Of a stretch of DNA of 42,825 nt, positions 127 to 12,213 are shown one piece after another. The stretch lies in contig QHBY01000308.1 in assembly GCA_003244245.1 (NCBI GenBank), positions 3,374 through 46,198 of the forward strand. Reading direction: 5' to 3'. The position numbers and the translations under genes were made by a program. Position 1 is the first letter of the stretch. Each line of letters begins with the position of its first letter. A model generated the notes under the pieces. That model did no database searches. It was not told where the DNA came from and was given only the letters and a program-made list of their open reading frames with translations. This DNA comes from Pseudonocardiales bacterium. Lineage in GTDB: Bacteria; Actinomycetota; Actinomycetes; Mycobacteriales; Pseudonocardiaceae.

Positions 127-861
127 ATGGCGAACGAGAGGCTTCGGGCAGCGCTGCTGCAACGCGGGGTGACCCCGATCGAGTTGGCCGAATCCGTGGG
201 CGTGGACCCGAAGACGATCGAGCGGTGGATCGGGGGCCGGATTCCCTACCGGCGACACCGGTACCAGGTGGCCAAGAGGCTCGGGATCGATGAGGCGTAC
301 CTGTGGCCGGGAGCTTTGGCCGCCGAGCAGGTCGCGTCCGCGTCGGAGAGCGAAATCTTGGTCCTCTACCCGCACCGTTGGGCCGTCCCCCGCACCATCT
401 GGGGACAGCTGTTCGACTCGGCCGAGGAAGAGATCGGCGTGCTGGTCTACAGCGGGATGTTCCTCGCCGATGATCCGGGACTGCTCGCCATGTTCCGTGC
501 CAAGGCTGCGCAGGGGGTGAGGGTCCGCATCCTGCTTGGCGACCCAGATGCGGCCGAGGTGGCCTGTCGCGGTGAGTTGGAGGGGATCGGTGACGCGTTG
601 GCATCGAAGATCCGCAATGTGATCGTGCTGTATCAGCCGCTGCGTGGAATTGACGGGGTGGAGATCCGGTTGCACTCGACCGTGCTCTACAACTCGATCT
701 ACCGTGCTGACGAGGAACTGCTGGTCAACTCCCACGTTTACGGCGTCCCGGCATCGCAGGCGCCGGTCATGCATCTGCGTCAGGTGTCCGGCGGCACCAT
801 GGTCACCACCTACCTGGAGAGCTTCGACCGCGTCTGGTCCGAGGCGCTGCCGCTCAACTAG
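127..861 (+). CDS. XRE-type HTH regulator fused to a degenerate phospholipase-D-like domain (DUF5919 type)
   Basis: The 244-aa protein has an N-terminal helix-turn-helix (about residues 4-55, with VGVDPKTIERWIGG as recognition region). A C-terminal domain (about 80-244) resembles the PLD fold, with the strands VLVYSGMF and VRILLGDP and an HSTVLYNS motif where an active enzyme would have HxK(x)4D. The catalytic Lys and Asp are therefore absent, which suggests ligand sensing rather than phosphodiesterase activity. It starts an apparent operon with a Nudix hydrolase (39-bp gap) and a membrane protein. A paralog lies at 3017-3754. The family assignment comes from recognising the domain combination; the DNA target and ligand are unknown. 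Confidence 0.75.
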   Translation: MANERLRAALLQRGVTPIELAESVGVDPKTIERWIGGRIPYRRHRYQVAKRLGIDEAYLWPGALAAEQVASASESEILVLYPHRWAVPRTIWGQLFDSAEEEIGVLVYSGMFLADDPGLLAMFRAKAAQGVRVRILLGDPDAAEVACRGELEGIGDALASKIRNVIVLYQPLRGIDGVEIRLHSTVLYNSIYRADEELLVNSHVYGVPASQAPVMHLRQVSGGTMVTTYLESFDRVWSEALPLN

Positions 862-900
862 CCGGACAACACAGCAGAGCGAACGAAGGGGTTGCCGGGC

Positions 901-1374
901 GTGGCGCGAATCGACTACTACGACGATCCGGACGCCCCACGCGCGAACAGTCTCATCCCGTCCGCGAACGTCGTCGTAGCCAACGACGACGGCGATCTGT
1001 TATTGATTCACCGGACCGATAACGACAACTGGGCGTTGCCGGGCGGGGCGATGGACCTGGGCGAGTCGTTGATCGACACGGCCGTACGAGAGACAAAGGA
1101 AGAGACCGGCATTGATTGTCGCGTCACGGGTTTGGTCGGTATCTACACCGACCCCAAGCACGTCATCCACTACACCAGCGACGATGAGGTGCGCCAGGAG
1201 TTCTCGGTCGTGTTCGTCGCGCGGCCGACCGGCGGGCAGCCGACCCCGAGCAGCGAGACTCGGGAAGTCGTGTGGATCGGCCGGCGGGTGGTCGGCGACT
1301 TGCGGATGGATCGGTCGATGAGGCTGCGGGTCCAGCACTTCCTTGAGGGCAGGAACACGCCCTACCTCGGCTGA
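901..1374 (+). CDS. Nudix hydrolase
   Basis: The 157-aa protein is read from GTG at 901; a TTG at 892 in the same frame is an alternative. The complete Nudix box GX5EX7REXXEEXGX is at about residues 49-71 (GAMDLGE, then RETKEETGI), preceded by the usual NWALPGG strand. Nudix enzymes hydrolyse nucleoside diphosphates linked to another moiety; the substrate cannot be read here. It sits between a DUF5919 regulator and a small membrane protein, 7 bp from the latter, so the three genes are probably cotranscribed. The Streptomyces element pSAM2 carries a Nudix-motif protein, Pif, that gives immunity to redundant transfer. A similar role is an inference here, prompted by the nearby recombinase. Confidence 0.9.
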   Translation: MARIDYYDDPDAPRANSLIPSANVVVANDDGDLLLIHRTDNDNWALPGGAMDLGESLIDTAVRETKEETGIDCRVTGLVGIYTDPKHVIHYTSDDEVRQEFSVVFVARPTGGQPTPSSETREVVWIGRRVVGDLRMDRSMRLRVQHFLEGRNTPYLG

Positions 1375-1871: not shown

Positions 1872-2429
1872 TCAGCTCGCTTCGAGTGCAGCCGCGATCT
1901 CGGCCGTCTGTCGGCGCAGAATCGGGGAGGCTTGCGAGACGGCGTGGTGCACGACGTCATCCGGGTCGTACCGGCTCAGGATCTCGGTGATCCGCTCATC
2001 AACCCCGAGCGGTTTCCCGTCGGGGCCGGTGGTCATGTCGCAGTACGTCAGCGCCGCGACTACAAACGGGTCAACGTCGCTGATAGGGAACTCAGCGGCT
2101 AGGACGTCGCCGAGCCCCCGCGCTTGCGCCTCGATCTCCGCGCAGGTATGGTGCGCGACCAAGATCCATAGTGTCGGATCACCGAACCTCGTGTCGCGCA
2201 GGCGCCGGGCACCGTCAAGCGGATGGAACCCGGTCACGGCGATCGGGCTGGCGTAGCCGATGTCATGCAGCCATGCGGCGGCCTCGAGCAAGCCGGCGTG
2301 CTGAGGCAGGAGTCGGCCAAGCGCGACGGCTTGACCGGCGACCCCCCGCGAGTGCGCCCACCGCACCGGCAGTTCAGGCTCGAGCAGCGATCGGGCCAGT
2401 TCACGTGCCTCTGCGGCGATCTCCATCAT
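1872..2429 (-). CDS. HD-domain phosphohydrolase
   Basis: The protein is about 185 aa from ATG 2429 (MMEIAAEAREL). A TTG at 2489 in the same frame lies inside the repaired 3' end of the upstream GntR gene and is less likely. HD-superfamily metal ligands are visible: WAHSRGVAGQ, AAWLHDIGYA (the HD pair), AHHTCAEIE, and ALTYCDMTTG with the downstream Asp. HD proteins hydrolyse phosphate esters, often nucleotides. The gene follows the GntR gene by about 26 bp on the same strand, so it is probably that regulator's cotranscribed partner. The substrate is unknown. Confidence 0.85.
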   Translation of the reverse strand: MMEIAAEARELARSLLEPELPVRWAHSRGVAGQAVALGRLLPQHAGLLEAAAWLHDIGYASPIAVTGFHPLDGARRLRDTRFGDPTLWILVAHHTCAEIEAQARGLGDVLAAEFPISDVDPFVVAALTYCDMTTGPDGKPLGVDERITEILSRYDPDDVVHHAVSQASPILRRQTAEIAAALEAS

Positions 2430-2454
2430 GCGAGGGTAACCAGCGCGGGACGGC

Positions 2455-2918
2455 TTAGCCCAGAGAGCGGCGTCCCTCGGCGTCCACAAAACGTCCTTTT
2501 CCGTGCACTGCCGTCACCAGGCCAGTGGCATCCAACAACGCCAAGCCCGCCGAGCTGTGCCCCTAGACACCCCGTACCGGCGCATCAGTTCGGCCTCGGA
2601 TGGCACCACCCGCTGGCCCGTTGCCAGTTCACCGGCGGTGATCTGCTGCCGCAGGTCGTCGGCGATCCGCCGGTAGCCCGCGGCAGCGGCTGTGCCTGTG
2701 GGATCATCGACGATCCGGCCCCGCCCAGCCAACGTCACGATCAGCCCGTCGCGTTCCAGCTCGGCCAACGCCCGACGCACCGTGTTGCGTGCCACGCCGA
2801 ACTCAGCCGCGAGCGAGGTCTCTGACGGCAAGGCAGAGCCCGGCGCGACATCCGCCAGCCGTTGCCGCAGATTGTCGGCGATTCGCGCGTACGTGCCCGA
2901 TGGAGTCGACCGCACCAA
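2455..2918 (-). pseudogene. Tandem GntR-type winged-helix regulator, frameshifted
   Basis: The reading frame from TTG 2918 (or GTG 2915) encodes two successive GntR winged helices. The first is complete (YARIADNLRQRL to GLIVTLAGRGRIV). The second starts YRRIADDLRQQI and runs off frame after GVSRGTARRA. Adding one base near 2545-2548 restores the family-typical end ALALLDATGLVTAVHGKGRF and a stop at 2455-2457. As written, the product ends prematurely at 2514. GntR proteins of this short type lack a large effector domain, as in actinobacterial Kor-type regulators. It is divergent from the second DUF5919 gene, sharing a 98-bp intergenic region with GGGACG repeats. A sequencing error is possible. 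Confidence 0.75.
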
Positions 2919-2976: not shown

Positions 2977-3016
2977 TCTTGTGCTAGCGTGCGCCGCAGG
3001 AACATGGGAGGTCAGG

Positions 3017-3754
3017 ATGCCGGACGGTCGCTCGATCGGTGAACCGCTGCGGCGCGCCCTGGCCGGTGCACGACTCCGTGATATCGACGTCGCCAAGACG
3101 TTGGGGGTCGACCCCAAGACGGTTCAGCGGTGGCTCAGCGGCCGGCTGCCCCAACCCCGTCACCGATGGGGACTGGCTGACCTGTTGAGCCAGCACGAAT
3201 ACGACCTGTGGCCCCACCTTGCCGGGGTGCCATCCATCGGCGCGGAGGTCTATGCCACGTATCCACACCGGGGCTCAGTCCCGCGTGACGTATGGCGCCA
3301 GCTCTACGACAGCGCGGAGCACCAGATCGACATCCTCGTCTACAGCGGTCTGTTCCTTGCCGAAGACGTCGAGATGGTCCGCTTGCTCGGCGACAAAGCC
3401 CGAGCCGGAGTCGCGGTTCGCATCATCCTCGGTGACCCAGACAGCCCGCACGTCAGCCAACGCGGCGACGAGGAAGGCATCCATGACGCGATGGCCGCGA
3501 AGATCCGTAACGCCATCGTGCTGTACCGGCCGCTCGTCGCGTCCGGCGTCCAGATCCGCCTTCATCCGACGGTGCTCTACAACTCGATCTACCGTGCTGA
3601 TGACGAGATGCTCATCAACCAGCATGTCTATGGCATCGCCGCTTCGTACGCGCCAGTCCTGCACCTGCGCCGCCACGGCGACGACGACGTGTTCGGCACC
3701 TACGTCGCCAGTTTCGAACGCGTCTGGTCCCCGGCCCAACCGCTGCCCGTCTGA
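3017..3754 (+). CDS. XRE-type HTH regulator with degenerate PLD-like domain (DUF5919 type), second copy
   Basis: The 245-aa paralog of the protein at 127-861 starts at ATG 3017 behind GGGAGG. The order is the same: HTH (LGVDPKTVQRWLSG, about residues 18-45), then a PLD-like fold with ILVYSGLF, VRIILGDP, a Lys-Ile-Arg-Asn-Ala helix, and HPTVLYNS in place of the catalytic HKD motif. Several blocks are nearly identical to the first copy, including about 28 bp with no change around 3572-3600 (compare 680-708). No Nudix gene follows here. The divergent neighbour is the tandem GntR gene. Probable role: ligand-responsive transcription factor. Confidence 0.75.
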   Translation: MPDGRSIGEPLRRALAGARLRDIDVAKTLGVDPKTVQRWLSGRLPQPRHRWGLADLLSQHEYDLWPHLAGVPSIGAEVYATYPHRGSVPRDVWRQLYDSAEHQIDILVYSGLFLAEDVEMVRLLGDKARAGVAVRIILGDPDSPHVSQRGDEEGIHDAMAAKIRNAIVLYRPLVASGVQIRLHPTVLYNSIYRADDEMLINQHVYGIAASYAPVLHLRRHGDDDVFGTYVASFERVWSPAQPLPV

Positions 3755-4769: not shown

Positions 4770-6284
4770 TTATCCGCGCCACCATTGGATGCGTTCTTCG
4801 GCGGGGATTGGGCGTGGTCCTCGGGTTGGTGAGGGTGTGATTCGCAGTTCGCCGAGCAGTTTGGGAGTGAGTAGCAGGCGGGCGATCTCGCGTCGGGTGC
4901 TCATGGGGGCGGCGGCCCAGCGTCGGGCGACGTCGGCGCCGGGCTCGATCAGTCCGCGTAGCGCACTGGGGGTGGCGAGTTCTGCGCTCCGTTTCTCCAG
5001 GCGCTGGATCTCGGCGAGAATAGCGGGTTCAGAACGTGCGGCGAGCGTGACACTGAGGGTTCCCGCTGCCACAGCCTCGGCGAGTTCGTCGTGTCGTGCC
5101 CGCACAGTGGCGAGCTGATCCTGAATTGCCGACAGTTCCCGATCGTCATGCTGTTCACCGGCACGAAGAGTGTCGATCACGTCAGGTCGGGCCAGATAGG
5201 CCAGCATGACCTGTTCGGCTATCTGGTCCACGGGGGCTTGGGTGATCCGGACACAGCCTTTGGTGCGGCAAAAGTACTCTGGGCGCTCGCCTCGATAGGC
5301 CACCGCCAGGGTGCCCTCGCAGCGGGCGCAGCGGGCGATCAGTGACAGCAGGTGCTTGCCCCGACCGGGTCGGGAGGTCCTGCGTTCCGGGGCGGACAGC
5401 AGACGTTGCACCGCCAGCCACTCCGCGCGGGACACCAACGGCGTCCACTGTCCTTCGTACATCTCGCTGACCGGAACCGGCGTGTGCCGCTCAGGACTGC
5501 GAGGACCAGTTCCCGGGCGGTGGGCCCGCAGCGCGGTGTAGGTGGGACACAGCGCAAGACAGCGCAGATGCTGCGGGGAGAACACCAGCCCCGAGCGGGT
5601 CCTGATGCCGCGCGCGTCGAAGTCCCGGGCGATGGAGTGCAGACTGTGCCCGGCCACCAGACGCCGGTACAACTCCGCCACCACCGGCGCCTCCACCGGT
5701 TCCGGCTCCTGGGAGATCAACTGCCGGGTCTGCGGATCAAACACCCGCCGATACCCATAAGGGATGCGTCCACCCGGCCGCCCAGCCACCGCATTCGCTG
5801 CCACCGCCCGCCGCAGCCGTGCCGACATCTTGGAGGACTCGTACTCCCCATCGACGGCGTCTTCGAGCAGCGAGCGGCGGTCCCGCCCGTTGGCAGGGTC
5901 ATAGGTCCGGTTGTGGGTAACAACGTGAATGGATACCGAGCGTCGCTCGCACAGCTCCATGAGCGTGACCCACTCCCCGACCCGGCGGCTGCCTCGGCTG
6001 CTCTCCCAGATCATCAATACCTGGGCGCCGAATTGATCGTTCTCCAGATCAGCAATCAGCCGGTCGAAGCCGTCTCGGGTTTTGCGGGAGTATCGTGACG
6101 CGCTGACCGACTCATCCCGGTACGACTGACCCAGCCTCCATCCGTGCTCGGTCGCCACCAGCTCATGGTCGGCGTGCTGCTCCTCCAACGAGCGGGCCCG
6201 GCCCGATCGATCGAGCGAGACCCGCAGGTAGTCCCGGGCCAGGATGACAAGTTTCTGCTGGTCAGCAACCTGGGTAGTGGTCAT
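4770..6284 (-). CDS. Large serine recombinase (site-specific integrase)
   Basis: The 504-aa protein starts at ATG 6284 (MTTTQVADQQ). The N-terminal resolvase domain has the catalytic Ser at about residue 23 in YLRVSLDRSG, and conserved Arg residues in SASRYSRKTRDGFDRLIADL and WESSRGSR. A recombinase domain follows (GGRIPYGYRR), then a zinc-ribbon with CARCEGTL and FCRTKGC. A C-terminal coiled-coil region follows, ending in TRREIARLLL. Length and domain order match intact large serine integrases. Such enzymes usually lie next to one attachment site. Here the gene start lies about 20 bp from a broken HNH endonuclease gene, so that gene is the probable integration target. Confidence 0.93.
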   Translation of the reverse strand: MTTTQVADQQKLVILARDYLRVSLDRSGRARSLEEQHADHELVATEHGWRLGQSYRDESVSASRYSRKTRDGFDRLIADLENDQFGAQVLMIWESSRGSRRVGEWVTLMELCERRSVSIHVVTHNRTYDPANGRDRRSLLEDAVDGEYESSKMSARLRRAVAANAVAGRPGGRIPYGYRRVFDPQTRQLISQEPEPVEAPVVAELYRRLVAGHSLHSIARDFDARGIRTRSGLVFSPQHLRCLALCPTYTALRAHRPGTGPRSPERHTPVPVSEMYEGQWTPLVSRAEWLAVQRLLSAPERRTSRPGRGKHLLSLIARCARCEGTLAVAYRGERPEYFCRTKGCVRITQAPVDQIAEQVMLAYLARPDVIDTLRAGEQHDDRELSAIQDQLATVRARHDELAEAVAAGTLSVTLAARSEPAILAEIQRLEKRSAELATPSALRGLIEPGADVARRWAAAPMSTRREIARLLLTPKLLGELRITPSPTRGPRPIPAEERIQWWRG

Positions 6285-6305
6285 AGCCCACGATGGTACA
6301 ACTAG

Positions 6306-6465
6306 CAAGGTGCCTCAAACTGCTGCCTGCTATGCCCCGCGCATCACCAGCAAGTACACCGCCAAGGCTGGGACATCACCATCCACGGCGGACGCGTCGA
6401 ATTCACCCCCCCCCGCAATCATCGACCCCGACCGCCGACCCCTCACCAACCCACTACGTCACTGA
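6306..6465 (+). pseudogene. C-terminal remnant of a 13E12/DUF222-type HNH endonuclease
   Basis: From 6306 the plus strand reads GASNCCLLCPAHHQQVHRQG, then WDITIHGGRVEF. This is the zinc-binding HNH end typical of DUF222/13E12 proteins (LLCxxHH, then VHxxGW). A run of nine C at 6396-6404 shifts the frame. One C fewer gives the usual ending PPAIIDPDRRPLTNPLRH and a stop at 6463-6465. The N-terminal part is absent. The reading frame is closed by TAG at 6303-6305, next to the recombinase promoter. The other part probably lies at the far end of the integrated element, outside this window. Confidence 0.65.
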
Positions 6466-6498
6466 TGCGACAGCGGTGCCGGTTCGCGGTCGGGCGAG

Positions 6499-6618
6499 GT
6501 GAACGCTTGGGCATCTCGCGCTGTTGTGGACGTTCTTCGTCCGGCATTCCCGTTTTTCCAGCACATCGCCCAAGCCGCGATGGTGTACGTGAACGCCCTG
6601 ATGGTCCAGGACGAATGA
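6499..6618 (+). CDS. Possible 39-aa small protein
   Basis: A GTG-started frame encodes a balanced, non-skewed sequence (AWASRAVVDVLRPAFPFFQH, then AAMVYVNALMVQDE) ending in TGA. It lies between the HNH remnant and a GNAT relic. No ribosome-binding site is obvious and no family was recognised. It may be a gene fragment. The rest of 6466-6701 shows nothing else. Confidence 0.2.
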   Translation: MNAWASRAVVDVLRPAFPFFQHIAQAAMVYVNALMVQDE

Positions 6619-6701
6619 ACAGCAATGGAGTGCAGCCGCGATTGCTGTCCGGTCGCCAGCGAGCAGGTTGAGCGCGCACTTCAAAGAGCGACCCTTGCGC
6701 C

Positions 6702-7204
6702 TCACGGCAGCACGCACGTGAGCCACACCAGTTCGCCGCGGTCATCCGTCGAGACGTGGTCGCGCGCGAACCCGAGCTTCTCGAGCACACGGAACGACGG
6801 CGCGTTCCAAGTACGCACTGTCGACCAGAGCCGCGTCCGCCCAGTCGCGATCGCGGCGTCGAGCACCGCGCGGGCCGCCTCAGTCGCGTAGCCGCGTGCG
6901 TGCGCACGCCGAAATAGCTCGTACGCGATCTCGGGCTCCTCGACGGTGGCGCGGCCGACGATCAGCCCGCAATATCCGATGAAGTCGCCCACGTCACGGC
7001 GGCGGATGGGCAGCAGCGCGATCCCAGTCTGTGTTGTCGCGGCAAGCTGTGTCGCGATGCTCTCCTGGATGTGCTCGACTGTCGGCATCCCGCCGCCCGT
7101 TCGGCGGCGAGCGCGCGATAGTCGTCGACATCGGACTCGGCCCACGGCCGCAGCGTCAGCCGCTCAGTCTCGAGGTGCAACAACATCGGCTGATGCGCGG
7201 CCAT
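6702..7204 (-). pseudogene. GNAT N-acetyltransferase, frameshifted
   Basis: The start at 7204 gives the typical GNAT N-terminus of RimJ/RimL type (LHLETERLTLRPWAESDVDD). A single-base loss near 7090-7100 moves the remainder (MPTVEHIQESIATQL to WLTCVLP) into another frame. The acetyl-CoA-binding segment ARGYATEAARAVLDAA and the C-terminal NAPSFRVLEKLGF motif are intact. Joined, the two parts make a normal 167-aa acetyltransferase of the RimJ-like group that acetylates small molecules or protein N-termini. As written it cannot make a full-length enzyme. A sequencing error in the GC-rich run is an alternative. Confidence 0.75.
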
Positions 7205-7522
7205 GGCGCCAGCCTAATGACGCCACTTGGCCATCCCGGGGTCTGAGGAAGATCGGGACGTCATGCGGACGAGCAGGCAGAGTGCCGGCCTGGTCTCTCG
7301 CACCCATGCACGCGCTCGACCTCTTCGCCACCGCCCAGGCCCGCTTCTGGCAGGCCACCGTAGACGCCCACTTCCATACATGGACGCAGCGCTTGCGGGA
7401 CGCCGCCGCCCGATGGGCAGGCGAGGATCACCGCCACCGCGGCGATGCCCAGGTACCGGACACGCGCCTGACGGCTTCTCCTCCGTCGGCGAAATCGGTC
7501 ATCTTCGCCGGCGACCCTCCAC
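7205..7522. other. Intergenic stretch with possible gene fragment
   Basis: There is no confident gene between the GNAT relic and the selB stop. A plus-strand frame from ATG 7306 reads MHALDLFATAQARFWQATVD and continues protein-like for about 40 residues before turning Arg/Pro-rich into the selB 3' end. It could be the start of a broken gene. No terminator hairpin was identified. Confidence 0.3.
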
Positions 7523-9280
7523 CTACACGAGCTCGTGGGTGCCGTCGGGGAGCTGGCGGCTGATCCCGCGGCGGGCCAGCAGTTCCATGATCGGGACGGT
7601 GACGCGGCGGGTGGTGTCGAGGGCTTGCCGGGCCTGGCTGAGGGTGAACGGGGTGGGCAGGTCACGCAGGCGTTCGATGGCGTCGTCGTCCGCGCCGGGC
7701 GCGAGGTAGACCCCGTTAGCGATCTTGAGCAGCTCACCCGCCCGCACGGCGGCGGCGAGCTGTTTGGCGCCCAGGCCAAGCTCGGCGAGCCGGTGCGCCT
7801 CGGGTGCGGCGAACGGCCGCTGCGCCAGTTCGGCGCGCAGGGCCGCGATCGCGCTGCGGAGCGCGTCGGGCAGTCCAGATACCGGTCCGGCGATGTGCAC
7901 CCGACCTTGGATGAGAGTCAATCGCGAGCCGAGCAGCAGCTCGATCAGGCGCGCGTCGGGCATTTCGGTGACCTGCCGGGCGACCTCCAGCGGCATCCCC
8001 GGTTCAAGCGGGTTCTCGGCCGCATGCTCGGCCACCGCGGCGGCCAGCCGGTCGCTGCGGTGCACCAGCAACGCCGCATCGACCAGCCAGCCACCAACCG
8101 CGACAGCCTCAGCCGGCACCCGCGCACCCATCGCGACCAGCTCGTCGCTGCGCATCAACCCACGCCGGCGCAGCTCGGCGTGCCCATCCGCGACACCGTG
8201 GAAGGTAGCCAGTTCGGCGGCCCGGGCAGCGGACGCGCCACGGCGGCGCAGCGCTGGCGGCCGCACGTCCAGCACGGTGACCCCGGCCGCGATGCTCCGG
8301 GCGCCGGGATCGCGAAGCAGCGCGCGATCCCCTATTCGCAGCGGCAACGGCTGCGCCAAGCCCAGCCGCGCGGTGTCCAGTCCCAGGGGTCGAACCCGCG
8401 TGGGGACCGCAGCCGCCCCCACATGCAACACCGCATGCCGGGGCAGTTCGGCGGCGGAGCCGGTGGACAGGCGGACATCGACGGTGCGGGTTGCCAGCCA
8501 GGCTGCCGGGGTGAGCAGCGCGTCGCCGCGGCGCACGGCCTCGCGGGGCACGCCGCGCAGGTTGACAGCCACCCGGGCCACCGCGGGCGCGGACTCCACG
8601 GGTGCGCCCAGCGACTGCAGGCCCCGCACCCGTACCCGTCGCCCTCCGGGGGTCAACTCCAGCTCGTCGCCGACGTGCAGCGTCCCGCCGGCCAGCGTGC
8701 CGGTGACCACAGTGCCCGCGCCACGGATGGTGAACGCCCGATCCACCCACAGACGGATGTCCGCCTCGACGTCCGGGGCGGGCAGTCCGGCGATCAGCTC
8801 ACTCAACGCGACGCGCAACTCGTCGAGGCCGGCACCGGTGGCGCCGGAGACGCAGACCGCGGGGAGCCGGCCCAGCGTCGAACCGGCCAGGTGCTCAAGC
8901 GCCTCCTCACGGGCCAGTTCGGGGTCCATCAGGTCACTGCGGGTCACCGCCAGCAGACCATGCCGGACGTTCAGCGCGTGCAACGCCTCCAGGTGCTCCG
9001 CCGACTGCGGCATCCAACCCTCGTCGGCGGCGACCACGAACAGCACCGCGGGCACCGGACCGACGCCGGCGAGCATGTTCGGCACGAACCGCTCGTGCCC
9101 GGGCACGTCGACGAACGCCACCGTCGATCCGCTGGGCAGCGTCGTCCAGGCGAACCCCAGATCGATGGTCATTCCTCGGCGTCGTTCCTCGGCCCACCGG
9201 TCGGGTTCCATCCCGGTCAACGCGCGGACCAGGGTGGACTTGCCGTGATCAACATGACCTGCGGTGGCTACAACATGCAT
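7523..9280 (-). CDS. selB: Selenocysteine-specific elongation factor SelB
   Basis: The 585-aa protein starts at ATG 9280 (MHVVATAGHVDHGKST). The upstream extension of the frame is antisense-like and overlaps selA. GTPase motifs are G1 GHVDHGKST, G2 region RRGMTIDLG, G3 DVPGHERF and G4-like TRSDL. EF-Tu-like beta barrels follow (IRGAGTVVTGTL), then winged-helix repeats at the C-terminus (ELAQRPFAAPEAHRLAELGL and later) that bind the SECIS hairpin. It delivers Sec-tRNA to in-frame UGA codons. The start overlaps the 3' end of selA by 13 bp, so the two are translationally coupled. Confidence 0.97.
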   Translation of the reverse strand: MHVVATAGHVDHGKSTLVRALTGMEPDRWAEERRRGMTIDLGFAWTTLPSGSTVAFVDVPGHERFVPNMLAGVGPVPAVLFVVAADEGWMPQSAEHLEALHALNVRHGLLAVTRSDLMDPELAREEALEHLAGSTLGRLPAVCVSGATGAGLDELRVALSELIAGLPAPDVEADIRLWVDRAFTIRGAGTVVTGTLAGGTLHVGDELELTPGGRRVRVRGLQSLGAPVESAPAVARVAVNLRGVPREAVRRGDALLTPAAWLATRTVDVRLSTGSAAELPRHAVLHVGAAAVPTRVRPLGLDTARLGLAQPLPLRIGDRALLRDPGARSIAAGVTVLDVRPPALRRRGASAARAAELATFHGVADGHAELRRRGLMRSDELVAMGARVPAEAVAVGGWLVDAALLVHRSDRLAAAVAEHAAENPLEPGMPLEVARQVTEMPDARLIELLLGSRLTLIQGRVHIAGPVSGLPDALRSAIAALRAELAQRPFAAPEAHRLAELGLGAKQLAAAVRAGELLKIANGVYLAPGADDDAIERLRDLPTPFTLSQARQALDTTRRVTVPIMELLARRGISRQLPDGTHELV

Positions 9281-10557
9281 GCCATTACCGCGACGCGCAA
9301 CGCGGCGTCCTGATCGGCCGGTAGCGACCGCACATCGAGCAGGCAGCGGCCCCGTTCGACGCGGCCGAGCACCGGCGGGCTGCCCGCTCGCAACAGCGTG
9401 GCGTAGCGCTCCGGAAGGCTGACCGCGGCGCTGTCCAGCGCCACCCCCGGCGCGCCGCCGCCGCCGACCGTTGCCTGCGACGCCACCGCGGTCGCGTCCA
9501 CCCCGCACGCGGCCAACGCCGTCGCGATCGCCGTCGCTCGCCGGTGCAGCGTTTGCGGGTCGGCTGATAGCGCCTGCGCGGTGGGGGTCGCGGGTCCGCG
9601 CAGCGTGGCCTCCAGAGCGGCGAGGGTGAGCTTGTCCACCCGCAATGCCCGGGCCAGCGGGTGCCGCCGCAGCGTGGTGATCAGCTGTTCAGATCCCAGC
9701 AGCAGCCCGGCCTGTGGACCGCCGAGCAGCTTGTCGCCGCTGGCGGTGACCAGGTCGGCGCCATGCGCCAGCGCGGTGGTGGCATCGGGCTCCTCGGGCA
9801 GCGCGGGGTGCGGCGTGAGCAGTCCCGAGCCGATGTCGACGATCACCGGCACGTTCAGGCCGGTCAGTTCCTTGATCGGAACCGCGGAGGTGAACCCGGT
9901 GATGCGGAAGTTCGAGGGGTGCACCTTGAGTACGAATCCGGTCTGCGGCCCGATCGCCGTGGTGTAGTCCTCGCGGGAGACCCGGTTGGTGGTGCCGACC
10001 TCGCGCAGCCGAGCACCGGTGGACTCCAGCAGGTCAGGGATGCGGAACCCGTCGCCGATCTCCACCATCTCACCGCGGGCCAGCACGATCTCGCGACCGG
10101 TCGCCAGCGCGGTCGCGGCGAGCACCAGCGCAGCGGCACCGTTGTTCACGACATGCACACCGGCTGCCGCTGGCACCGCCGCCGCCAGCGCGGCCAACGC
10201 CCCGGCCCCGCGGCGGCCCCGCCCGCCGCTGACCAGGTCAAGTTCGACATCGGTGGTTCCGGCCGCGGTGCTTAGCGCCTCGACCGCTGCGGCGGACAGC
10301 GACGCCCGCCCGAGGTTGGTGTGCAGCAGCACCCCGGTGGCGTTGAGCACCGGGCGCAGGGTCGTCGCGGTCTGCGGCAACGCGGCCAGCACGTCGGCGA
10401 CGACACCGGCTGGCGCCACGACGCCCTCGCGGACCCGCTGCAGTGCCGCAGTCACCGCCTGCTTGACTTGCTGGCGGCCCAGGCGCTGCGCGGCGGCCGC
10501 CACCGCAGGATCGGCCAGCACCGCGTCGGTGCGCGGAACCTGCCGGCGGACATCCAT
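9268..10557 (-). CDS. selA: L-seryl-tRNA(Sec) selenium transferase SelA
   Basis: The 429-aa PLP enzyme converts Ser-tRNA(Sec) to Sec-tRNA(Sec) using selenophosphate. The PLP Lys is in TASGDKLLGGPQAG. Other family motifs are LNATGVLLHTNLGRASLS, EVGTTNR, and KVHPSNFRITGF. ATG 10557 is preferred; a GTG at 10566 is in frame. The length is normal for bacterial SelA. The 3' end overlaps selB. With tRNA-Sec 1.6 kb upstream on the same strand, three of the four bacterial selenocysteine genes are here. selD, which makes selenophosphate, is not in the window, nor is any recognisable selenoprotein. Confidence 0.97.
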   Translation of the reverse strand: MDVRRQVPRTDAVLADPAVAAAAQRLGRQQVKQAVTAALQRVREGVVAPAGVVADVLAALPQTATTLRPVLNATGVLLHTNLGRASLSAAAVEALSTAAGTTDVELDLVSGGRGRRGAGALAALAAAVPAAAGVHVVNNGAAALVLAATALATGREIVLARGEMVEIGDGFRIPDLLESTGARLREVGTTNRVSREDYTTAIGPQTGFVLKVHPSNFRITGFTSAVPIKELTGLNVPVIVDIGSGLLTPHPALPEEPDATTALAHGADLVTASGDKLLGGPQAGLLLGSEQLITTLRRHPLARALRVDKLTLAALEATLRGPATPTAQALSADPQTLHRRATAIATALAACGVDATAVASQATVGGGGAPGVALDSAAVSLPERYATLLRAGSPPVLGRVERGRCLLDVRSLPADQDAALRVAVMACML

Positions 10558-10584
10558 AGCTCGCACGCTAGCTCTTCCCGCGTC

Positions 10585-12105: not shown

Positions 12106-12120
12106 TCAGCAAGCTGATTG

Positions 12121-12213
12121 CGGAGGCGGACGGGAATCGAACCCGCCTGATCGAGTTGCTCGACCACGTCGGTGTTGAAGACCGCGGGGGCCACCAGGCA
12201 CCCATACGCCTCC
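12121..12213 (-). tRNA. selC: Selenocysteine tRNA, anticodon TCA
   Basis: The minus strand reads GGAGGCGTATGGGTGCC and ends TTCGATTCCCGTCCGCCTCCG. The acceptor arms GGAGGCG/CGCCTCC pair. The T loop is GTTCGATTC. The anticodon loop CTTCAAC carries TCA (plus-strand 12176-12178). A long variable arm (GTGGTCGAGCAACTCGATCA) forms a stem. At 93 nt without CCA, the length and shape are those of bacterial tRNA-Sec. CCA is not encoded (CAA follows). The tRNA lies upstream of selA and selB on the same strand. Confidence 0.95.

Follow-up and report, generated by a model that had tools for sequence, protein, structure and literature searches.

The window, i.e., the whole stretch of DNA analysed here (42,825 nucleotides; positions 3374-46198 of contig C308, from a draft genome of 5.38 Mb in 608 contigs), carries a large serine integrase gene directly beside the C-terminal remnant of a 13E12 (DUF222-HNH) gene. 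Contig C308 contains runs of N, and its left end lies only 3.4 kb beyond the window, across a stretch that includes an FtsK-like gene. The integrase gene (4770-6284, minus strand) encodes a protein of 504 aa from an ATG at 6284 in an uninterrupted frame, in agreement with the serine recombinase gene starting at 6284 that a preliminary description of this DNA had proposed. Its product matches the Pfam families Resolvase (2.3e-19) and Recombinase (2.5e-11), and the Resolvase catalytic domain precedes the Recombinase domain, the order that defines large serine integrases. A profile built from this integrase and six relatives matched solved serine integrases, e.g., YokA, PhiC31, TP901-1 and A118. 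The Pfam family Zn_ribbon_recom is absent from the listing of the window integrase and present for the C412-type integrase described below; Cys 319, 322 and 339 are invariant across seven aligned integrases, a zinc ribbon being recognised by two Cys pairs. Searching the contigs of named genomes with the window integrase returned two loci, both in Pseudonocardiales MAGs. Viral contigs contained no match to the window integrase and none to the 13E12 alignment, and 141 phage records matched the integrase, each at <60% identity and the top-ranked one at 35%.

Leftward of the integrase lie presumed element genes for a NUDIX protein (892-1374, plus strand; Pfam NUDIX, 1.5e-20) and a GntR regulator (2514-2918, minus strand; Pfam GntR, 1.1e-29), together with three genes presumed to be element cargo. 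These encode a helix-turn-helix protein (127-861, plus strand; HTH_19, 28.9 bits against a cut-off of 30.2, and HTH_3, 21.6 against 23, both just below), an HD-domain protein (1872-2447, minus strand; Pfam HD, 4.3e-06) and a PLD-like protein (3014-3754, plus strand; PLDc_2, 23.7 bits, under the Pfam cut-off of 27). By eye, the products of 127-861 and 3014-3754 are alike, each with a helix-turn-helix start and a PLD-like rest, and the NUDIX, HD and GntR genes lie between them; this likeness is possibly a cargo duplication. Just outside the element on the other side, a selenocysteine set was noticed by eye (a selB-like ORF at 7523-9508 and a selA-like ORF at 9268-10566), and ARAGORN placed a tRNA-Sec at 12120-12213 (minus strand).

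The 13E12 tail to the right of the junction

The region 6318-6465 (plus strand) was assigned as the C-terminal remnant of a 13E12 gene, the host half of the site, by paralog identity, reading frame and stop. It is 88-89% identical at the DNA level to paralogs on contigs C215, C350 and C532 of the same genome (E 1e-52 to 6e-48, far beyond chance), and the alignments start at 6318 (C215) and 6317 (C350 and C532), with no visible likeness farther left. The HNH tail of the preliminary description is thus a genuine 13E12 remnant, whose start has to be moved from 6303-6306 to 6318; bases 6303-6317 were rejected as part of the 13E12 gene because the paralog alignments end at 6317/6318. The run of nine Cs at 6406-6414 (plus strand), described earlier as shifting the tail, is indeed one base longer than in the three aligned paralogs, and the tail translates as NCCLLCPAHHQQVHRQGWDITIHGGRVEFTPP in one frame and as PPPAIIDPDRRPLTNPLRH followed by a stop (6463-6465) in the next. 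Having no start and no N-half, the tail is a remnant in whichever frame. The C215 paralog (89% DNA identity to the tail) matches DUF222 at 8.6e-49, with a separate HNH family unlisted, and the window holds the tail only. The profile search yielded 17 DUF222 matches in this genome, some of them parts of one gene, and neither the DUF222 profile nor a partial 13E12 protein detected, in this draft assembly, a matching N-half that ends at the codon of the tail.

When the window DNA at 6317-7550 was compared with 10 other genomes of the genus, only 13E12 tails and short pieces matched. Synteny around the locus is lost among these genomes, G002 gave no match to this DNA, and no unoccupied counterpart of the window's chromosomal locus was found. 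Among nine 13E12 tail loci in other genomes of the genus, four (L071, L072, L074 and L075) match unbroken across the site; the other five are either split or truncated at a contig edge, or gave no match.

A different 13E12 tail on contig C584 of the same genome (L062; 9006-9158, minus strand) begins at the window's codon with no integrase adjoining, fused to what by eye appears to be a 5′-truncated LuxR-type gene. The start of a tail at this codon is therefore by itself no proof of integrase insertion. C584 was tried as a second insertion by a window-type integrase and rejected, since its flank looks LuxR-like by eye and has no arm motif at the distance expected from the layout. A tail without a recombinase, which the preliminary description had set as an observation that would speak against its reading, was thus found once, at this other locus of the same genome. 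Reverse transcriptase-like and tyrosine recombinase-like ORFs were seen by eye ~7-10 kb from the C584 tail. Internal gaps occur in two further paralogs, L015 (C65, about residues 317-424) and L013 (C543, about residues 70-183), indicating that the 13E12 family decays by other routes also.

The element-side arm and the probable crossover at an Asn codon

Between the integrase start and the crossover lies the element-side (P-type) attachment arm (6285-6317, minus strand), recognised by a layout common to 10 arms. It includes the conserved motif ACCTTGCTAGTTGTAC (6296-6311, minus strand), which is also present upstream of the integrases of relatives; the pattern ACCTTNNTAGNNGTAC matches exactly once in the window's own genome. 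The layout, two core bases followed by 6 nt and ACCTT, held for all 10 tabulated arms from six genomes, with GCCTT in one arm, and three of the 10 are far-end arms in inverted orientation. In eight of these arms a 13E12 half or an empty site fixes the position of the core; in the other two (G007:C1 and G002) the core was placed by the rule. Applied to the window, this rule locates the core at AA, 6318-6319, so that 6285-6317 belongs to the element, host sequence begins at 6318, and the element extends leftward. The homology edge and the arm offset together thus point to AA at 6318-6319 (plus strand), with which an Asn codon (AAC) of the HNH region opens, as the crossover dinucleotide; relatives for which both ends are available, or for which an empty site exists, have an equal offset between arm motif and core. 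Beside the integrase start, ACCTTnnTAGnnGTAC is kept at loci with 70-83% identical integrases (three in G007 and one in G002), and beyond it these loci diverge, except for ~40 bases common to two G007 loci.

These coordinates revise the earlier placement of the crossover within 6285-6305, an interval that belongs to the element arm; the crossover lies 13 bp rightward, and the gap between the integrase start and the crossover is 33 bp rather than ~20 bp. The leftward extension of the element that had been proposed with it fits both the arm layout and the homology edge at 6318. A search of the window's own genome with the arm motif, one mismatch allowed, revealed no second arm: the known exact copy and three one-mismatch matches were returned, against five for a reversed-pattern control.

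In G007:C31 the arm motif repeats, inverted, ~29.4 kb away, and the inverted arms enclose an island of ~29.5 kb (~137988-167445; L058/L059). Both outer flanks of this element are joined and insertion-free in G008, which therefore provides an empty site for a 71% identical integrase. This empty site is a 62-bp palindrome, in which the sequence places the break somewhere in GCGG, and the palindrome centre and arm symmetry place it at GC, at distances of eight and seven bases from the ACC in the two arms. Less neatly, the same flanks adjoin in G005, with palindrome and element both missing, and lie ~1 kb apart on contig C482 of the window's own genome, with a palindrome copy in between and the element missing. 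By eye, the G007:C31 island holds Hsp20-, HAD- and dehydrogenase-like ORFs. The palindrome (TCGTGAACTCGAC...GTCGAGTTCACGA, at G008:C90:4674-4735, L084:1972-2033) was seen in 9 of 11 genomes of the genus, with between 0 and 19 forward matches in each genome when ≤3 mismatches were allowed, and 0 for a reversed control. Its arms are conserved, with apparently paired changes between them, and its centre is variable; one copy is the target of the G007 relative of the window integrase.

Related integrases occupy the same codon in other genera

Among 297 genomes of the family searched with the window integrase, 12, its own included, match at E 1e-70 or better. In three other genera (G072, G275 and G258), integrases 56-59% identical to it directly follow a 13E12 N-half, and these N-halves stop at profile residue 391-392, the point at which the tail in the window begins. 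For G275 and G072 the C-half lies at the opposite end of the element, 9,591 and 9,543 bp away, respectively, core to core, and the reading frame is continuous across the joined flanks, giving RHLHAHHVRSWLRGGPTDIDNLVLLCSHHH (G275) and RWCHAHHIEHWVHGGPTDLGNLALLCTEHH (G072). The bases common to both junctions are AA only in G072 and CAA in G275. Junctions of the hybrid-site type are seen at both ends in the relatives G275, G072 and G007, and at one end in the window. The 13E12 N-half that the preliminary description expected at the far end is not found in the assembly, where the contig ends, but an arrangement with the two halves at opposite ends does occur in the two complete relatives. The integrase adjoins the C-half in the window and the N-half in G072, G275 and G258, and, read in the integrase direction, the core is TT in the window and AA in these relatives, which corresponds to the opposite insertion orientation that C-half adjacency in the window requires. 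The G275 and G072 elements carry Phage_capsid genes (1.4e-23 and 3e-20) and AAA_25 genes, and from this gene content they look like phage satellites.

Target choice within the integrase clade

Junctions could be read for eight integrases at ≥55% identity, i.e., those of the window, three G007 loci, and one each in G002, G072, G275 and G258; L021 (no integrase N-terminus), L102 (contig edge) and L099 (N-terminus unmatched) had unreadable junctions and were left out. The 13E12 codon is the target in four of the eight, a palindrome in one, and 13E12-free sites in three. The closer relatives (70-83%) are those at other targets, namely the palindromic repeat in G007:C31 and 13E12-free sites in G007:C1, the third G007 locus and G002. 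No 13E12 was found in the fetched flanks of seven relatives at <50% identity that the window integrase had retrieved (L108, L109, L112, L022, L027, L110 and L111), and among 397 genomes of the order five match the window integrase at 1e-80, the sole one from outside the family being 40% identical.

In a tree of 18 rows, the window integrase groups with that of G002 (100/98), and these two group with the G007 pair (100/99); G072, G275 and G258 fall outside this window/G002/G007 group, in an unresolved fork. The tree takes in L128, which was left out of the 13E12 flank search, and is without the C412-type integrase, which was unmatched by tblastn with the window integrase at the limit used. The 13E12 codon may thus be either an older target kept by the window integrase or one acquired twice.

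A second integrase lineage at a second 13E12 codon

Six serine Recombinase family matches occur in the window's own genome, and three of them (window, C278 and C412) adjoin 13E12 fragments; for the remaining three, tblastn against the loci fetched detected no 13E12. The integrases on C278 and C412 share 95% identity with each other and 24% with the window's, and they are fused to two different 13E12 paralogs at one shared codon in the DUF222 domain. Each gene half at both loci shows 83-84% identity to C28, an intact copy of the gene. The alignment of C278 with C412 breaks off upstream of the gene, in a comparison that covered no more than 311 and 75 bases there. Relatives in G006 (91%) and G007 (95%) occupy the identical place in 13E12, so that all four loci at ≥90% identity share it, and the C412-type element of G007 has the 13E12 C-half at its other end, ~12.9 kb away. 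No 13E12 adjacency was found for a 72% relative (L097) or for pieces at 71-80% (L103 and L104), and L100 (41%, from the C412-type query) had no 13E12 match. At L098/L119 (G160:C10), a sequence 62-64% identical to the C412 type contains two stop codons and adjoins a reversed 13E12-like C-terminal fragment.

Gene content and kind of the element

The FtsK_SpoIIIE (PF01580) protein encoded to the left of the window on the same contig is a weak match (25.1 bits against a cut-off of 24.0), and it matches, at 32%, a G002 protein encoded close to another integrase. The FtsK-bearing DNA and the integrase would belong to one element. Among the eight window proteins tested, from an element that is incomplete on the contig, no replication initiator of the RepSA, RepAM or Prim-Pol type and no capsid gene was recognised. 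GntR, NUDIX and FtsK genes together form a usual AICE gene set, and, as judged from its GntR, NUDIX and HD genes and the FtsK-like protein, the window element is probably AICE-like.

Explanations for the junction

We consider it highly probable that the junction is an attL/attR-type hybrid of an integrated, probably AICE-like element to the left, made by the adjacent integrase. In this mechanism, the product of 4770-6284 would recombine attP of the circular element with attB across the 13E12 Asn codon, at AA, and thereby split the 13E12 gene, leaving the C-half at 6318-6465 and an N-half expected at the unassembled left end of the element. We infer that the window integrase itself made the window insertion and that the left end of the element holds this N-half. 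Weighing against this explanation are the N-half missing from the assembly, the adjacency of the integrase to the C-half instead of the N-half, the other targets of the closer relatives (70-83%), the lack of adjoining 13E12 in the seven relatives at <50%, the integrase-free C584 tail, the FtsK match scarcely above its cut-off, and the absence of a recognised replication gene. The 13E12 tail might instead be an old pseudogene fragment, beside which the integrase came to lie by another route and by coincidence. 13E12 pieces are abundant in the genome, those on C65 and C543 were broken by other means, the tail is frameshifted, and the C584 tail is integrase-free at the same codon, all of which suit a coincidence; however, the break codon is shared with three other genera that carry related integrases, and the conserved arm lies at an equal offset, which makes this reading improbable. 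That the window is a mis-assembly joining the element to a 13E12 tail is hardly credible, since the join falls at the predicted dinucleotide with the arm complete and an assembler would have no reason to pick that base, even though the draft has 608 contigs, N runs occur on this one, and the target is a multi-copy gene of the kind where assemblers often err.

A separate small element, e.g., a phage satellite like those of G275 and G072, with the FtsK genes belonging to another element or to host DNA, is an alternative that concerns just how far the element reaches and what type it is; the attachment-site portion of the integration explanation can hold alongside it. Related integrases at the same codon do sit in capsid-bearing satellites, and short stretches at the left end of C308 resemble elements with the other integrase type; nevertheless, a small element appears rather unlikely, given that the eight window proteins tested include no recognisable capsid, that the window's own genome yielded no second arm, and that the combination of GntR, NUDIX and FtsK is the one usual in AICEs.

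Taken as an integrated element, the locus accounts for the presence in this genome of broken 13E12 genes next to serine integrases. It provides a base-level attachment site which, with the two-ended relatives, would suit a plasmid assay, as well as further natural integrase/att pairs, among which those of the window and G007, ~70% identical and with different targets, would be useful for studying site choice. The findings suggest that mobile DNA lands repeatedly in genes of the 13E12 family. More speculatively, and with doubt on our side, 13E12 could be a general landing pad in the order, on whose different codons several independent lineages converged (two documented here, and phiRv1 likely a third), where integrases of one codon serve both a conjugative-type element and capsid satellites, and where copy number is tied to docking use.

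Comparison with known systems

The phiRv1 element probably has its site nearer the 3′ end of the 13E12 gene than the site in the window. In Mycobacterium tuberculosis, phiRv1 lies in REP13E12 and has the serine recombinase Rv1586c (PMC9317374; Bibb and Hatfull 2002 and Bibb et al. 2005, as cited in PMC9317374 and PMC10654092), and it has been described as PICI-like (PMC10654092). As far as these accounts go, phiRv1 in REP13E12 is the precedent, and the use of 13E12 by a serine integrase is already known. A serine recombinase with a 13E12-family repeat as its target is common to phiRv1 and the window, and the PICI-like nature of phiRv1 parallels the capsid genes of the G275 and G072 relatives, whereas the window element looks AICE-like by its FtsK, GntR and NUDIX genes, with no capsid recognised among its eight tested proteins. 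What is added here is the exact codon, related integrases at it in four genera and apparently in two element classes, a second integrase lineage at another 13E12 codon, and the two-ended demonstration in relatives. The use of 13E12 by phiRv1 is thus no oddity of the tubercle bacillus, as two lineages use two positions in another family of the order. Our searches found no literature on 13E12 together with a serine integrase and attB; the literature found, in its accessible portions and with most subscription papers outside the search, names no such codon as an attachment site, and a match from the DUF222/HNH endonuclease literature mentions REP13E12, in the text available, as a repeat and not as an integration site.

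Among AICEs, Faln2929 of Frankia has a serine recombinase and disrupts a putative endonuclease gene (PMC3218068). It resembles the window element as an AICE-type element whose serine recombinase interrupts an endonuclease gene, and differs in that the available text of PMC3218068 names neither the 13E12 family nor the cut codon for this endonuclease. Multi-targeting large serine recombinases have many distinct gene clusters as targets, often with DUF4368, according to the main text of PMC10083194, which contains no DUF222, 13E12 or HNH; they share with the integrases described here the presence of one integrase kind at more than one site per genome, but the target here is one multi-copy gene family.

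The resemblance on contig C308 is to AICEs of the pSAM2 type, in which an FtsK/TraB-type translocase accompanies GntR and NUDIX genes on the integrated element, the same set of FtsK-type translocase, GntR and NUDIX genes as found here. Most AICEs, according to PMC3218068, combine tyrosine integrases with tRNA genes, whereas the window combines a serine integrase with a 13E12 target.
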